Shown one piece after another: positions 3,779-29,557 of a DNA stretch of 64,000 nt. Numbering within the stretch: position 1 is the first letter of the stretch; each line of letters opens with the position of its first letter. The notes below the pieces were generated by a model that saw nothing but the letters and a program-made list of their open reading frames with translations, had not been told where the DNA came from and did not search any database. Origin of the DNA: Armatimonas rosea (lineage in GTDB: Bacteria > Armatimonadota > Armatimonadia > Armatimonadales > Armatimonadaceae); assembly GCF_014202505.1 (NCBI RefSeq), contig NZ_JACHGW010000005.1:248001-312000 (forward strand), given 5' to 3'. Position numbers and translations under genes: made by a program.

Positions 3779-4543
3779 ATGTCTAGAGCCACCTCCCTGC
3801 GGCGAGGCTTTACCCTGATAGAGCTTCTTGTCGTCATTGCCATTATCGCCATCTTGGCCGCGATCCTCTTCCCGGTCTTTGCTCAGGCGCGGGAGAAAGC
3901 CCGCACGATTGCCTGCCTCTCCAACACCAAGCAGATCGGCAACGCGCTCCTAATGTACCTTCAGGACTACGACGAAGCCCTGCCCGCGCCGGACTGGGGT
4001 GCCGTGACTGCCACCAGCGGCCCTGAGCGGAGCGCCTTCGCTTGGGCGGGTGGGGGAACCGTTCCCCCCGGCCCGAACCTTCCTTGCTGGGCGGACCTCT
4101 TCATGCCCTACATCAAGAGCACCGATGTCTTCAAGTGCCCCGATGATGGCACGGGCAACCCCAGCGCAGGCGGCGTTTTCTACAAGGGCAAGCCCATCTC
4201 CTACGGCCTCAACACCTACTTCTACCGCACGCCGGAGGGCAACTTCTTTGGGACCAACTACAACGGCAGCGCGTCGTATGCCAAGATGGCCAACCCCGCC
4301 AGCAAGATCTATATCGCTGAGGTGGAGTCCGGACGCGGCCAGGAGCTGGTCTACCCGGCACGGCCTTGGGCGCTGACCCGCCACACCCAGGGGAGCAACT
4401 ATCTCTACGCCGACGGCCACGCCAAGTGGCACAAGATGCCTAGCTGGAGCACGACCACGACCTTCTGGAACGACCTGCCCACCGCGACAGCAACTCAGTA
4501 CCAGCAGTGGTTCCCCTGGACCGATGCTGAGGAGAAGTGGTGA
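3779..4543 (+). CDS. Type II/IV prepilin-like protein with H-X9-DG motif (DUF1559-like)
   Basis: A 254-residue pseudopilin. A short basic leader ([10 protein letters not shown]) precedes [17 protein letters not shown], the class III signal cleaved after Gly by prepilin peptidase. The hydrophobic helix ends in [12 protein letters not shown], a stretch I associate with Armatimonadota prepilins. Near the C-terminus [14 protein letters not shown] gives the H-X9-DG signature. A GTG at 3755 would place eight extra residues before the leader; the ATG at 3779, preceded by TAACAT 5 nt upstream, fits better. It is coupled to the next gene by TGATG. Its pilus or secretion partner machinery is not in the window. 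Confidence 0.9.
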
Positions 4544-24335: not shown

Positions 24336-26000
24336 ATGACACCGTCTAATCCTCCTCAATCCTCCACCCTCACCCGGCGTGGGTTCTGTGCACTCAGTCT
24401 CTCCCTTCTCTCGCTGGCGCTGACCGGCTGCCCGTCGAGCAATAGCTCCGGGGGGGGAGCCGGAGGGGGGGGCTCTGTCCCCGGCGTCCTGCGCTACCCG
24501 ATCGCCACGGAGCCCTCGACACTCGATCCGCACCGCGCACAAGATGGCCCGACCATCGACCTGCTCCAGAACGCCCACATGGGCCTGGTGGGCTGGAACG
24601 ACAAGACCGAGGTAACCCCGCTCGCCGCCAAGGAGCTGCCTAAGATCAGCGCCGATGGGAAGGTCTACACGTTTGTGCTGCGCGACGGCCTCAAGTTCCA
24701 CAATGGCCGCGCGGTGACCGCCGATGATGTGAAGTACAGCCTGACCCGCGCCCTCGACCCCAAGCTCGCCTCGCCCGTGGCAGGGAGCTACCTCGACGAT
24801 ATCCAGGGGGCCAAAGAGCTTGCTGCGGGTAAGGCCACCGAGCTCACGGGCGTGAAAGTGATCGACAAGAGCACGGTCGAGATCACGCTGGTCGGCTCCC
24901 GGCCGTACTTTTTGGGCAAGTTCACCTATCCGACCGCCTACATCCTTGCCAAAGAGGAGATCGAGAAAGGCCCGACTCTGCCAAGCGGTGCCAAGACGAT
25001 CGGCTCCGAGAACGCGGCGACTGTCGGCTGTGGGCCCTTCAAGCTGACCAACTACACGCCCCAGAAGTCCGTGACCCTGGAGGCCAACAAGGACTGGGTG
25101 CTCGGGGCGCCCAAGCTCACGAAAGTGGAGCGCCCGATCATCCTCGACACCAAGACCGCCCGCCTCCAGTACGACTCGGGGCTCGTGGACATTATCGCGC
25201 TGGAGAAGGGCGACTACGAGAAGGACAAGTCCGACCCCAAGTACGCCGGTCAGGTGCAGACCTTCAACCGCGCCTCGACCTACTATGTCGGGCTGAATCA
25301 GAAGGCCTACGCCCCGTTCAAGAACGCCAAGGTCCGGCAGGCCTTTGCCCACGCTACCAATAAGGAAGAGATCAAGAAGGGCGTCCTCCTCGATGTCAAT
25401 ACCGCCGCCGAGTGTGTCGTCCCTGAGGGCATGCCCGGCTACGATCCCGCGTTCAAGGGGTACCCCTACGACGAGGCCAAGGCCAAGGCGTTGCTTGCGG
25501 AGGCAGGCTTCCCCGATGGCAAGGGCCTTCCGCCGCTCACCCTCTGCTTCCGCCAGCAGCAGCCGGATATCGTCAAGACCGCCCAGGTTCTCAAGGAGCA
25601 GTGGAGCAAGGTCGGGATTCCGGTGGAGCTGCGCGAGATGGAGTACGCCTCGCTCATCAACGCCATGGACCGCGATGAGGTTGTCTACTTCCACCGCTGG
25701 GGCGCGGACTACCCCGACCCGCAGAACTACCTCTCACTGCTCCTGACCACCACGGGCGCGGAGAACCATGTCGGCTACTCCAACCCGGAGTACGACAAGC
25801 TCTGCGCCGCCGCCGATGTGGAGACCGATCCCAAGAAGCGCCTGGAGATGTACGCCAAGGCCCAGCGCATGGTCGTGGACGATGCCCCGTGGATTCCGGT
25901 CTACTACCAGCGCGACATGGAGCTGATCAAACCCCACGTCACCGGCATCAAAGACGGCCTCCTCGGCCACCTTCCGCTCGTCACGGTTGAGGTCAAATAG
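24336..26000 (+). CDS. ABC transporter substrate-binding lipoprotein, family 5 (dipeptide/oligopeptide type)
   Basis: 554 residues. A twin-arginine-like start (LTRRGFCALSLSLLSLAL) leads into the lipobox LTGC, then a Gly/Ser-rich tether. The mature protein has the SBP_bac_5 pattern: EPSTLDPHRAQD, KVYTFVLRDGLKFHNGRAVTA and DVKYSLTRALDP near the N-terminus, and YYVGLNQKAYAPFKNAKVRQ AFAHAT later. It binds peptides or similar solutes and delivers them to the permeases at 27747-29557. Those permeases are separated from it by two unrelated genes. No ATP-binding subunits (DppD/F) are present in the window. Confidence 0.9.
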   Translation: MTPSNPPQSSTLTRRGFCALSLSLLSLALTGCPSSNSSGGGAGGGGSVPGVLRYPIATEPSTLDPHRAQDGPTIDLLQNAHMGLVGWNDKTEVTPLAAKELPKISADGKVYTFVLRDGLKFHNGRAVTADDVKYSLTRALDPKLASPVAGSYLDDIQGAKELAAGKATELTGVKVIDKSTVEITLVGSRPYFLGKFTYPTAYILAKEEIEKGPTLPSGAKTIGSENAATVGCGPFKLTNYTPQKSVTLEANKDWVLGAPKLTKVERPIILDTKTARLQYDSGLVDIIALEKGDYEKDKSDPKYAGQVQTFNRASTYYVGLNQKAYAPFKNAKVRQAFAHATNKEEIKKGVLLDVNTAAECVVPEGMPGYDPAFKGYPYDEAKAKALLAEAGFPDGKGLPPLTLCFRQQQPDIVKTAQVLKEQWSKVGIPVELREMEYASLINAMDRDEVVYFHRWGADYPDPQNYLSLLLTTTGAENHVGYSNPEYDKLCAAADVETDPKKRLEMYAKAQRMVVDDAPWIPVYYQRDMELIKPHVTGIKDGLLGHLPLVTVEVK

Positions 26001-26002
26001 TC

Positions 26003-27163
26003 GTGGCGGAACCGTTTCTGCGCGAGATTACTCCCGGAAACCTACTCTCCTTCGGCCCAAACCCGGAGCCTATCAAGCTCAATCAGCTCAATATCCTGAT
26101 TGGAGCCAACGGCTCCGGTAAGTCCAACCTCATTGAAGTCATCCACGTCCTCCGCTCCACTCCAATAAATTTAAGGAAAGCTTTCAGCCCTGGATTTGCA
26201 GATTGGATTTGGAAGGGGAATCCGACTGAATCGCCAGAACTAAGTGCCATTATTCGTTACGATGCTGCCGATAAAAAGTTTGATCTTGTACACTCGTTAC
26301 GATTTGACTCAGAAAGGCCGTTTGTTGAGATAGAGAACGAAGTTATAGGGATACCTTATAGAAACGACGACGAGAGCACATTTTATACACGAGATGGAAA
26401 TATTGCGATTCTGAGAAGTGCTTCTGGTGATGATGAATTGGTAAATGAACCTTTGCTAAAAGATTCATCAATTTTATATCAAAGACAAGACCCGAAAAGG
26501 CTTCCTGAACTGTATTTTTTGACTCAGAAATATAAATTTATTCGGATTTATCGTGAATGGCAATTTGGAAGAAATAGTGAGTTGCGGGAATCTCATAAAA
26601 CGGATTTACGGCATGAGGTTTTAGAGGAAGATTTCTCGAATTTGGCGATGTATCTGAATTACCTCCGAAGCTTTCCACCGGTTCGGCGGAAGCTGATTGA
26701 GAAACTTCAGAATGTCTTTGCGGGGATTACGGATTTTGATGTTTCCGTTGTCGGTGGGACGGCGCAGCTTTATCTGATCGAGGGGGACTATCGTATCCCG
26801 GCGACGCGGCTTTCGGATGGGACGCTTCGGTATCTGTGTCTGCTGGCGATTCTGTGTAACCCGGAGCCACAGCCGCTGATTTGCTTGGAGGAGCCGGAAC
26901 TGGGGTTGCACCCGGACTTGCTCTCTGGCTTGGTTGATCTCATTAAGGAATGTTCCGAGAGAACCCAGATGATTGTCACGACACACTCAGAGTTTATTGT
27001 GGATGGCTTTTCAGAGAATCCAGAATGCGTTGTTGTCGTTGATAAAGAAGATGGGATCACCAAAATGAAACGCCTAAGCCATGACTCTCTCAAAGTTTGG
27101 CTGGAAGAGTATAGCTTAGGGCAGCTTTGGAACCGTGGTCAGATTGGGGGAACGCGCTGGTGA
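26003..27163 (+). CDS. AAA/ABC-type ATPase of an OLD/PARIS-like kind (AAA_21)
   Basis: A 386-residue P-loop ATPase starting at GTG 26003, two bases after the binding-protein stop. Walker A is IGANGSGKSNLIE near residue 35. RLSDGTLRYLCLLAIL is the signature motif, followed by Walker B in ICLEEPELGLHPDLL and the switch histidine in TTHSEF. This architecture (SMC/Rad50-like head with a small insertion) is common in anti-phage systems whose partner gene carries a nuclease. The middle of the gene (about 26160-26700) is clearly more AT-rich than the transporter genes around it. It overlaps the next gene by GTGA. Confidence 0.85.
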   Translation: MAEPFLREITPGNLLSFGPNPEPIKLNQLNILIGANGSGKSNLIEVIHVLRSTPINLRKAFSPGFADWIWKGNPTESPELSAIIRYDAADKKFDLVHSLRFDSERPFVEIENEVIGIPYRNDDESTFYTRDGNIAILRSASGDDELVNEPLLKDSSILYQRQDPKRLPELYFLTQKYKFIRIYREWQFGRNSELRESHKTDLRHEVLEEDFSNLAMYLNYLRSFPPVRRKLIEKLQNVFAGITDFDVSVVGGTAQLYLIEGDYRIPATRLSDGTLRYLCLLAILCNPEPQPLICLEEPELGLHPDLLSGLVDLIKECSERTQMIVTTHSEFIVDGFSENPECVVVVDKEDGITKMKRLSHDSLKVWLEEYSLGQLWNRGQIGGTRW

Positions 27164-27750
27164 AGACGGTGACAGTTTATTTAGAAGGGGCTGAGAAGAA
27201 AAACAAAAAGCTGGTCAATGATTGCCGCCGTGGCTTCTCCGAACTTTTTGGGATGAGGCATGTTGTATTCGTTCCATGTGGTGGTAGGAAACAAGCTTTT
27301 GATGATTTTGAGGTGGCCTACAAAAATCCCGATGGCACTTGGCCAGTCTTGCTTGTAGATAGTGAGGACGAAGTGGTTGATGCATCAAAAATTGAACACC
27401 TCACCAAAAGAGATGGCTGGAAGTTCCCCGAAGGAGTCACCGAACGACAGGTTCAGCTAATGACAACCTGCATGGAGTCATGGCTGATCTACGAACGAAA
27501 CGGCCTCAGGACGTTCTACGGAAGCTGTTTACAGGAAAGTGGTTTGCCCTCCAAATTTGAGATGGAAACACGCCACCGTCACACTCTCTTCGATATACTG
27601 CGACATGTGACCCGAGATTGTGTGAGAGATAAAGTTTATGGAAAAGGGATGGCATTTCAAATATTAGCGCTGGTCGAGGGGGCGACGCTCCGCGAGTTAA
27701 AGTATTTCGAGATGGCCTATACAGCGATAAAGGGGCATACCAAGATATGA
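27160..27750 (+). CDS. DUF4276-like protein, partner of the ATPase
   Basis: 196 residues from a GTG at 27160 that overlaps the ATPase stop. Segments TVTVYLEGAEKKN, VVFVPCGGRKQAFDDF, WPVLLVDSEDEV and LMTTCMESWLIYE resemble DUF4276, a family thought to have a TOPRIM-like acidic fold (E of YLEG, DSED). In my experience such proteins pair with AAA_21 ATPases in presumed defence modules, the ATPase sensing and the TOPRIM-like subunit acting on nucleic acid. The 3' end overlaps the permease start (ATGA). Family placement is likely; function is inference. Confidence 0.7.
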   Translation: MKTVTVYLEGAEKKNKKLVNDCRRGFSELFGMRHVVFVPCGGRKQAFDDFEVAYKNPDGTWPVLLVDSEDEVVDASKIEHLTKRDGWKFPEGVTERQVQLMTTCMESWLIYERNGLRTFYGSCLQESGLPSKFEMETRHRHTLFDILRHVTRDCVRDKVYGKGMAFQILALVEGATLRELKYFEMAYTAIKGHTKI

Positions 27751-28706
27751 TTCGCCTCATCCTCACGCGTCTTGGGCTGGCGATCCCGACCCTCCTCGCG
27801 ATCTCGTTTCTGGTGTTCTTCGCCACCTACCTCTCGCCCGCCGATCCCACGGATATCCTGCTGGGGCAACACGCGACCCCAGAGAGCAGGGCACAGCTTC
27901 GGCACCAGCTGGGGCTCGACCTGCCGCCGCTGGTGCGCTACGGCAACTATGTCACGGGAATTGTCTTCCACGGGGACTTTGGGCGCTCGTACTACAACAA
28001 CGGCGAGGCAGTGACCGCGCTGATCAAGCGGGGCTTTCCCAACACGGGGACCCTGGCGACCCTGGCGCTTCTCTTCTCCTTGGGGATTGGGATTCCGATT
28101 GGGATTCTGGCGGCGGTGAAGGCCAACAAGGTGATCGACCGGGCGGCGATGAGTGTGGCGCTGCTCGGGGTCGCGGTGCCGTCGTTTGTGCTCGCGCCGC
28201 TCCTGACCCTCTTTTTTGCGGTGCAGCGGAACCTACTGCCCCCGATGGGCTTCGCGCTGGGAGACGCCGTCCGGGCACAGCCACAGTTCTTTATTCTGCC
28301 GGCGATTGTCCTGGGCGCACGCTCGGCGGCGCTGATGGCACGCATGACCCGCTCGGCGATGCTGGATGTGCTGGGGCAGGACTACATTAGGACGGCACGG
28401 GCCAAGGGGCTCTCGGATGGTGTGGTGCTCTTTAAGCACGCGCTGAAGAACGCCTTCCCCCCGATCATGACGGTTGCAGGGACGACCTTTGGGTACTTGC
28501 TCTCCGGCTCATTTGTGGTGGAGACCTTCTTCCAGATTCCGGGGCTGGGCTACCAGTCGATCTTTGCGATCCAGCAGCGCGACTACCCGGTGATCCAGGG
28601 GCTGGCGCTTCTCATGGCCTTTATCTTTGTGGTGGTGAACTTGATCGTCGATATTCTCTACGGCGTCCTCGATCCCCGAGCACGTGCGGCGGGAGGGAAG
28701 CGCTAG
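27747..28706 (+). CDS. ABC transporter permease, DppB/OppB type
   Basis: A 319-residue inner-membrane protein with about six helices. The start MIRLILTRLGLAIPTLLAIS is the family-typical first helix. The BPD_transp_1 domain contains the EAA loop, here DYIRTARAKGLSDGVVLFKHAL. It forms the channel together with the DppC-type protein that follows 2 bp later. The ATG overlaps the DUF4276 stop (ATGA), so its translation is coupled to a gene outside the transporter system. Confidence 0.92.
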   Translation: MIRLILTRLGLAIPTLLAISFLVFFATYLSPADPTDILLGQHATPESRAQLRHQLGLDLPPLVRYGNYVTGIVFHGDFGRSYYNNGEAVTALIKRGFPNTGTLATLALLFSLGIGIPIGILAAVKANKVIDRAAMSVALLGVAVPSFVLAPLLTLFFAVQRNLLPPMGFALGDAVRAQPQFFILPAIVLGARSAALMARMTRSAMLDVLGQDYIRTARAKGLSDGVVLFKHALKNAFPPIMTVAGTTFGYLLSGSFVVETFFQIPGLGYQSIFAIQQRDYPVIQGLALLMAFIFVVVNLIVDILYGVLDPRARAAGGKR

Positions 28707-28708
28707 CC

Positions 28709-29557
28709 ATGCAAGAGCTCAAGAAAAACAAGCTCGCCTTTGCCAGCCTGATCTTCCTCGGGGTGCTGGTGCTGATCGCGCTCTTTGCCAATGTGCTGGC
28801 GCCCTACCCGTTTGCGGAACAGAAGCTGGCCGACCGGATGCAGGGGCCGAGCGCGGCACACCGGCTCGGCACCGATGACCTAGGGCGCGATGTGCTCTCT
28901 CGGCTAATCTACGGCGCACGGATCTCTCTGTCCGTGGCGGTCTTGGTCGAACTCGTGGTGGTGGGTATTGGCGTCACCGTGGGGCTGATCGCGGGGTTCT
29001 TTGGCGGCTGGGCGGAGACCTTGCTCATGCGCCTCACCGACACGCTCCTGGCCTTCCCCGATGTGCTCCTCGCCATTCTCCTCTTGGGAACCCTCGGCGC
29101 GGCGGCATCCAAGCCCGAGGTCTCGCTCTTTCTGGTGGTGATGTCGCTGGGGATCACCGGCTGGCCCCCGCTGGCGCGTCTGGTGCGGGGCCAGGTGCTC
29201 TCCCTGCGAAAGCGCGAGTTTGTGGAGGCCGCGATTGCAATGGGGGCGAGCAATGGGCGGATTCTGCTGCGCCATATCCTCCCCAACCTGCTCTCCCCGA
29301 TCATTGTCGCGGTGACGGTCGATGCCGCCGGCGTGATCCTCTCCGAGGCGACCCTCTCGTTTCTGGGGATCGGTGTCCAGCGCCCGTTTCCCTCGTGGGG
29401 GCGCATGATCAACGACGCGCTCGACTACTACCGCTCCGAGCCGCGCCTCGTGGTCTGGCCCGCGGTCTGTCTCTCGCTCACCGTCATCGCCCTAAACTTC
29501 CTCGGCGATGGCCTCCGGGACGCGCTCGATCCCCGAAAACGCTCTGGCGGGCATTAA
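28709..29557 (+). CDS. ABC transporter permease, DppC/OppC type
   Basis: A 282-residue inner-membrane protein. The N-terminal helix (LAFASLIFLGVLVLIALFAN) and the following HRLGTDDLGRDVLSRLIYGA are standard for DppC/OppC permeases. The EAA loop is REFVEAAIAMGASNGRILLRH. It is the last gene of the operon. No ATPase subunit genes follow, so the energising subunits must be encoded elsewhere. The gap to the convergent gene (29558-29619) has a weak GGGC/GCCC hairpin but no clear T-run. Confidence 0.92.
   Translation: MQELKKNKLAFASLIFLGVLVLIALFANVLAPYPFAEQKLADRMQGPSAAHRLGTDDLGRDVLSRLIYGARISLSVAVLVELVVVGIGVTVGLIAGFFGGWAETLLMRLTDTLLAFPDVLLAILLLGTLGAAASKPEVSLFLVVMSLGITGWPPLARLVRGQVLSLRKREFVEAAIAMGASNGRILLRHILPNLLSPIIVAVTVDAAGVILSEATLSFLGIGVQRPFPSWGRMINDALDYYRSEPRLVVWPAVCLSLTVIALNFLGDGLRDALDPRKRSGGH

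Follow-up and report, generated by a model that had tools for sequence, protein, structure and literature searches.

A pair of genes matching candidate defence system HEC-01 in a dipeptide-type transporter operon of Armatimonas rosea, and the recurrence of its family at host-operon junctions

What is a two-gene module with an SMC-like ATPase doing in the middle of a nutrient operon, and how did it get there? The question is raised by a plus-strand operon (positions 24336-29557) in the window, i.e. the stretch of 64,000 nucleotides analysed here, which stems from an Armatimonas rosea genome of 6.3 Mb (98% complete, 19 contigs). The operon starts with the gene for a family-5 extracellular solute-binding protein (24336..26000, +; Pfam SBP_bac_5, 7e-86) and ends with the genes for a DppB/OppB-type permease (27747..28706, +; BPD_transp_1, 3.5e-46) and a DppC/OppC-type permease (28709..29557, +; BPD_transp_1, 7e-34; OppC_N, 8e-12), and between them lie the genes for an ATPase and a small partner protein. 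These flanks had been named correctly from the sequence alone, and no defence genes are among them. As a dpp-type operon it has a binding protein and two permeases and no adjacent transporter ATPase subunits, as is also the case in a pair-less genome (L081).

The junctions are tight, exactly as the sequence-only reading had given them together with their coordinates. The stop codon TAG of the binding-protein gene (25998-26000) is followed by TC and then by the GTG start of the ATPase gene at 26003, i.e. by a gap of 2 bp. The stretch directly ahead of this GTG (25987..26002, +; gaggtcaaaTAGtc, read from the sequence) contains a Shine-Dalgarno (SD)-like GAGGT within the final binding-protein codons, 9 nt upstream of the ATPase start, which would serve as ribosome site for the ATPase. 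As this GAGGT is also found in the pair-less genome of the same genus (L005), it predates the pair. The ATPase stop codon TGA (27161-27163) overlaps the GTG start of the partner gene at 27160 (GTGA, -4 bp), and the TGA of the partner gene (27748-27750) overlaps the ATG of dppB at 27747 (ATGA, -4 bp). An alignment of 19 relatives shows that the partner starts at GTG 27160 and rules out a longer version starting at TTG 27127. The start codon of dppB is ancestral; the alignment to the pair-less genome L081 picks up at dppB codon 1.

The first gene of the pair (26003..27163, +; 386 aa, GTG start) encodes an SMC/Rad50/OLD-type ABC ATPase, HEC-01A. The PADLOC HEC-01A model PDLC04177 matches residues 4-386 with E=3.1e-144 (profile 3-393 of 393), Pfam AAA_21 scores 1.9e-33 and SMC_N is strong as well, and ABC_tran reaches 17.2 bits at a cut-off of 25, which is near noise. 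All ABC/SMC head motifs are present, namely Walker A (GANGSGKSN), signature (LSDGTLRY), Walker B (LICLEEPELGLHPD) and H-switch (TTHS), and they are conserved in the alignment. The predicted model (pLDDT 89) resembles the heads of SMC, Rad50, PtuA and OLD proteins (Foldseek E~1e-13 to 1e-11), and the ATPase profile retrieves SMC, retron-Eco8 OLD, PtuA and AriA chains by sequence, so that the SMC/OLD-like P-loop ATPase proposed at the outset is well founded.

The second gene (27160..27750, +; 196 aa, GTG start) was assigned by PADLOC, its predicted structure and Foldseek. The HEC-01B model PDLC04201 matches with E=1e-52 (profile 3-197 of 202). The protein had been called DUF4276-like, which is true of its relatives in a stricter sense than of the protein itself: DUF4276 (PF14103) scores 17.7 bits on the window partner, below the cut-off of 30.2, whereas the aligned relatives in L058 and L242 pass (56 and 75 bits, respectively), and the partner is thus a divergent DUF4276 relative, not a recognised member. 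The limited literature search found no paper naming DUF4276. In Foldseek the best PDB matches of the AlphaFold model (pLDDT 95.1, pTM 0.90) are the TOPRIM regions of the OLD nucleases of Xcc and Bp (6njv, 6njx, 6nk8), followed by GajA; the match to the OLD C-terminal regions is modest (probability 0.98-0.99, E=3e-3, TM about 0.46-0.52), and the partner profile has no sequence matches among PDB chains. Across 19 relatives E9-G10, R43, V66-D67, E69 and E106 are invariant and G41 is nearly so. In Bp OLD, E400, D455 and D457 are metal ligands, E404, T506 and E508 hold a second metal and K562 is the catalytic lysine (PMC6755086). Residues E9, D67 and E69 of the partner plausibly correspond to E400, D455 and D457, and E106 would match E508, with the mostly conserved lysine of a YxKG motif in the place of K562. 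The TOPRIM pattern consists of a glutamate after beta-1, a glycine after beta-2 and DxD after beta-3; the partner carries DxE (D67-x-E69) where DxD is canonical, and the equivalent of E404 is not conserved among its relatives. Taken together, the model supports a TOPRIM-like fold, as the sequence-only reading had considered possible; a predicted structure with neither a TOPRIM-like nor a nuclease fold, which that reading had named as counter-evidence, did not arise. With DxE in place of DxD and a weak counterpart of E404, activity as a nuclease is putative.

Both proteins thus match, over their full lengths, the candidate defence system HEC-01 (Hma-embedded candidate 01, PADLOC-DB; preprint by Payne et al. 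2024, doi 10.1101/2024.01.29.577857, cited in PMC12988326), with which the pair also shares the gene order and the overlap of the genes, and the suspected defence-type module thereby receives a name. As reported in PMC12988326 with reference to Payne et al. 2024, HEC systems were nominated for being embedded in antiviral systems. HEC-01 was nominated from antiviral operons, whereas the window pair is found in a dipeptide-type transporter operon; the embedding is how the HEC family was discovered and is not part of the sequence models. A literature search found no activity report for HEC-01.

Several named systems are built in a similar way. PARIS (AriA/AriB) also encodes its OLD/SMC-type ABC ATPase and its TOPRIM protein in two genes, and on sensing an anti-restriction protein the ATPase switches on a tRNA-cleaving TOPRIM nuclease (summarised in PMC12839542). 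However, the window ATPase scores 3e-144 with HEC-01A and 2e-34 with AriA, i.e. about 110 orders of magnitude apart, and AriB is a DUF4435 TOPRIM, whereas the window partner is DUF4276-related, is matched by HEC-01B models only and gives no match with the AriB model at E<=10. OLD nucleases (class 1/2; Gabija GajA) share the ATPase head and a TOPRIM-like domain with an E and Dx(D/E) motif, and it is the class 2 OLD structures that provide the TOPRIM fold match to the partner. Yet in OLD and GajA ATPase and TOPRIM are on one chain, whereas the window has two polypeptides and DxE for DxD, and in Gabija a UvrD-like GajB helicase stands beside GajA, whereas the neighbours of the window pair are transporter genes. 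TOPRIM-linked OLD-ABC dyads embedded in BREX operons, described in 2026 (PMC12839542), have the same architecture inside a host operon, but that work describes dyads of defence operons only, whereas the operons that host the pair in the window and in four or more further lineages are metabolic or housekeeping ones. Elements encoding 23S rRNA intervening-sequence proteins (23S-IVP; PF05635) are also found at a gene-gene junction of the Methylobacter cys operon, but they are single small genes with no ATPase or nuclease and are unrelated in sequence to HEC-01. A limited literature search found no paper on ATPase-TOPRIM pairs inside housekeeping operons. The pair thus belongs to a candidate family that is already known, but is located, as far as this search shows, at a type of site that has not been reported.

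The history of the junction can be read from genomes without the pair. In G001, the one other genome of the genus that was compared, the binding protein is 94% and DppB 93% identical to the window proteins, the pair is absent and a 136-bp spacer separates the two genes. The DNA alignment between the window and G001 stops at the binding-protein stop codon and restarts at the dppB start codon, with 85.8% and 84.7% identity on the two sides of the break. The spacer itself (L005:3193-3328) contains an imperfect inverted repeat (CCTCCTTCCCAACCTCCTCCCA / TGGGAGGAGGGGCTGGGGGAGGAGG), and repeat-bearing spacers of this kind are present at the same junction in L020 and L027. In five members of the family without the pair, binding protein and dppB are 9-19 bp apart. 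Within the 64-kb window, on which the codon statistics are based, GC3 is 0.48 for the ATPase and 0.505 for the partner, as compared to 0.784 +/- 0.067 in the 46 other genes (z = -4.5 and -4.2, respectively). Since the operons of the genus and the family lack the pair and GC3 is aberrant, these comparisons support horizontal and recent acquisition. The sequence-only reading had argued for acquisition and named a common gene order with matching codon use in all related genomes as the finding that would speak against it; this finding did not occur.

Homologs of the partner are found in 21 of the 291 genomes of the phylum, a sporadic distribution that is in keeping with acquisition. Some partner homologs in the phylum contain in-frame stops (L042, L044, L046, L052, L054, L056) and are possibly decaying copies. 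In a quick tree of 92 ATPases the sequences of the phylum are scattered, at least three label changes being forced by well-supported branches and 11 by parsimony, and the HEC-01 family spans Bacteria and Archaea at 40-49% identity. Plasmids or phages as carriers were considered and rejected, as 72,556 plasmids gave no match at E<1e-40 and the phage search returned one relative, 27% identical, in phage RCS47.

The middle of the ATPase gene had been described as AT-rich, which is correct (GC3 0.26-0.31 at codons 53-200), but AT-richness covers both genes. The low stretch (26159-26600) begins abruptly after codons 1-52 (26003..26158, +), which are host-like with a GC3 of 0.71 and C-ending codons and end at a possible mosaic boundary; sliding GC3/C3/G3 values also show a G-ending patch at codons 250-300. 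None of the 96 homologs compared has as strong a contrast between codons 1-52 and the middle, and the gene may be a mosaic. The ATPases of two Methylobacter copies that go back to one shared insertion (L138 and L242) are 100% identical at the N-terminus, nearly identical over the first 60 residues and 97% identical in the Walker B region, as compared to about 33% at alignment positions 91-150, the difference being concentrated in residues about 80-170. Either a swap or diversifying selection could underlie this hypervariable middle. We picture the ATPase as a conserved frame with a fast-evolving or replaceable middle, which would be the likeliest site of trigger recognition. The genome of the window encodes a second AAA_21 ATPase on contig C7 (L083:6544-9274; 30% identical, HEC-01A-like with 1e-53), whose gene overlaps a 209-aa gene of no known family by 4 bp and has an FKBP-domain gene upstream.

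What the sequence-only reading missed is recurrence: the HEC-01 family is lodged in several other housekeeping operons. A HEC-01 pair interrupts cysD-cysN in Methylobacter (L174, identical to L138; L177, identical to L136; a diverged copy in L242), a junction that is near-unoccupied, with 45-48 bp, in L245 and in second copies of the Methylobacter locus. It interrupts lutA-lutB in Limisphaerales (L084), where the junction measures -4 or +2 bp in 10 relatives and holds spacers of 116-338 bp in about ten others, and ubiX-pheA in Bryobacterales (L097), where pheA directly follows ubiX in 22/24 relatives. In the window's own order a Capsulimonadaceae genome (L058) has the pair between darA and holB, which are adjacent in L209. 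The family is accordingly present in operons for sulfur, lactate, amino-acid and DNA-replication functions, in unrelated bacteria. Defence operons are hosts as well, with a pair between HsdS and HsdR of a type I restriction-modification (RM) system in the verrucomicrobial L086, whose neighbours cluster by BLAST with those of L089, L091, L127 and L161, and with pairs within BREX-like operons in L103, L115, L116, L121, L128, L139 and L164. The copies in the lut operon (L084) and between HsdS and HsdR (L086) form one clade (support 95, branches about 0.1) and, being near kin, indicate that one lineage moved between a metabolic and a defence operon. Two independent insertions at the Methylobacter cysD-cysN junction, suggested by 68% ATPase versus 96% CysD identity, were dismissed, since a leader of 46-47 bp ahead of cysN is common to both copies.

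In 85 loci with both neighbours visible, which rely on simple codon-based gene calls, come mostly from metagenome-assembled contigs and are partly non-independent, the pair runs in the same direction as both neighbours in 52 cases and antisense to both in 10 (p = 6e-8); after pooling of the RM, BREX and Methylobacter cases the bias is 40:10 (p = 2e-5). Unusually tight junctions, in contrast, were dismissed as a family trait: both gaps are <=20 bp in 18% of the HEC-01 pairs versus 26% of the ordinary operon pairs in the same loci, and thus tightness alone shows no special mechanism. Many members of the family are not tightly lodged. HEC-01 behaves like any other gene of an operon, a noteworthy trait in a module that was acquired, and its family settles repeatedly and co-directionally between the genes of host operons, of the defence as well as the metabolic kind.

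The cysD-cysN junction has several kinds of tenant across Methylobacter genomes, i.e. HEC-01, HEC-02, an unnamed pair, 23S-IVP elements or short repeats only. The HEC-02 pair (L243:4329-5947, genome G319; HEC-02A 3e-153, HEC-02B 1.7e-54) has gaps of 20 and 26 bp to cysD and cysN, respectively. The unnamed pair (L244:1719-2845, genome G301) consists of overlapping genes for a 190-aa protein with a weak Mrr_cat match (E=0.0012) and a 185-aa protein with TOPRIM-like motifs (VEGNNDE..FDTDT, i.e. VEGxxD..DTD); it has no match in PADLOC and is possibly a new defence pair. All two-gene tenants are oriented like the operon; their upstream gaps measure 4-20 bp and their downstream gaps 23-47 bp. The 23S-IVP-like ORFs, which encode four-helix proteins of 113-114 aa and have repeat-like ends, occupy the spacers L175, L183, L185, L186, L188, L190 and L200; PF05635 matches the copy in L188 with 3.5e-33, and the other Methylobacter ORFs were assigned by similarity. 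These ORFs sit within the cys operon, outside rRNA genes.

Based on these findings we regard it as probable that the pair is a HEC-01 module gained by horizontal transfer and encodes a TOPRIM nuclease of abortive-infection type, gated by an ABC ATPase and expressed by riding a nutrient operon. HEC-01 would be a split OLD/PARIS-like pair in which the SMC/Rad50-type ABC ATPase holds and gates the small TOPRIM nuclease. The divergent middle of the ATPase probably senses a signal of infection; this would release or activate the HEC-01B nuclease, which would then cleave nucleic acid of the host or the phage. By this means the pair presumably gives phage defence, and by analogy with PARIS abortive infection is the most likely mode of action. 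The pair would have settled at the binding-protein/dppB junction, with its flanks trimmed after insertion. In the simplest reading a single transcript starts from the binding-protein promoter and translation proceeds by termination-reinitiation at each junction: the SD-like GAGGT near the end of the binding-protein gene would serve the ATPase, and coupling would serve the partner at GTGA and dppB at ATGA, so that the module draws its expression from the nutrient operon. If so, immunity would always be expressed along with the transporter, and any loss of the pair other than a clean deletion would harm dppB. Coupling of dppB to the pair is plausible from the ATGA overlap and the missing intergenic space, and dppB translation would then depend on the pair. 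Two promoter-like matches on the plus strand within the ATPase gene (26973-27066) may leave room for separate expression of the permeases.

Other readings have to be weighed against this one. The pair might be an ordinary defence pair that landed between two genes by chance and had its flanks trimmed by compaction, with neither a habit of lodging nor a link to the transporter. HEC-01 gaps at least as large as those found in background operon pairs, the absence of a terminal-repeat signature across loci and the many relatives that stand alone or at operon ends are all in keeping with such a bystander. It is nevertheless rather unlikely in view of the same-strand bias at co-directional junctions (52:10), the recurrent interruption of housekeeping operons that are otherwise contiguous, in five lineages that have relatives without the pair, and the three types of pair at a single cysD-cysN junction within one genus. 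We likewise consider it unlikely, and a little more so, that the ATPase silences a TOPRIM toxin and that lodging in the operon mainly secures the maintenance of the pair itself instead of phage defence. Such a toxin-antitoxin or addiction module would account for the split of ATPase and TOPRIM, a layout shared with AriA/AriB of PARIS, in which a toxic nuclease is under the control of the ATPase (PMC12839542), for the disturbance that loss of the pair would cause to a coupled host operon and for the chromosomal habit seen in the plasmid and phage searches. By sequence, however, it is indistinguishable from defence, and the nomination of HEC systems for embedding in antiviral systems, as PMC12988326 relates it from Payne et al. 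2024, speaks for the latter.

Inverted repeats at some of the loci suggest that the module might be cargo of small MITE/IVS-like elements that prefer operon junctions. The Limisphaerales pair lies between short inverted repeats (TTTAGCCACAGATGGACACAG ... TCTGTGGTTAAAA; L084:2485-2560 and 4400-4455) that resemble those of the 116-338 bp elements at the lutA-lutB junction of its relatives, 23S-IVP elements with repeat-like ends are present at cysD-cysN and the G001 spacer at the dpp junction has an inverted repeat too. Across 94 loci, however, there is no excess of repeats over mismatched flanks (maximum 12 versus 13 in controls) and the junctions of the window have none, which makes this origin improbable; flanking inverted repeats were thus rejected as general insertion mechanism, L084 being the lone case, found by eye, although such elements may have acted in individual lineages. 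The small elements at lutA-lutB in Limisphaerales (spacers L220, L222, L225-L229, L236) are bounded by the inverted repeats CCACAGATG..ACACAGAT / ATCTGTGG. Finally, the position of the ATPase gene between binding protein and permeases, together with the lack of an ABC-transporter ATPase gene directly downstream in the window and in L081, might suggest that the ATPase was recruited to power or regulate peptide uptake in an operon without DppD/DppF. This is hardly credible, as G001 and the family relatives have operons with neither the pair nor an adjacent ATPase, and HEC-01 relatives adjoin unrelated genes; a DppD/DppF-type transporter subunit was dismissed on the ABC_tran score (17 bits at a cut-off of 25) and the SMC/Rad50 head fold. 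Thus, an acquired HEC-01 defence module carried by the transporter operon is the reading that we prefer.

The sequence comparisons suggest that defence genes can dock in housekeeping operons. In its most general form, which we put forward tentatively and with more doubt than confidence, junctions of housekeeping operons would form a general and exchangeable class of sites at which two-gene defence modules without a promoter (HEC-01, HEC-02 and unnamed pairs of the ATPase or nuclease type) can dock. These modules would be chromosomal, lie outside defence islands, be expressed by the host operon, be protected from loss by coupling to the downstream gene and be renewed by swaps of whole pairs as well as by replacement of the ATPase sensor segment in place. 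Most discovery of defence systems relies on defence islands or mobile elements and, if defence pairs routinely hide in housekeeping operons, would miss them. The expression of immunity would then be tied to nutrition, i.e. to peptide uptake in the operon described here and to sulfate activation or lactate use elsewhere. A testable question follows from this, namely how genes enter operons without a scar and whether such modules escape loss through translational coupling to a gene of use to the host. The Methylobacter cysD-cysN junction, with its unoccupied form and several tenants in one genus, offers a natural system for it.
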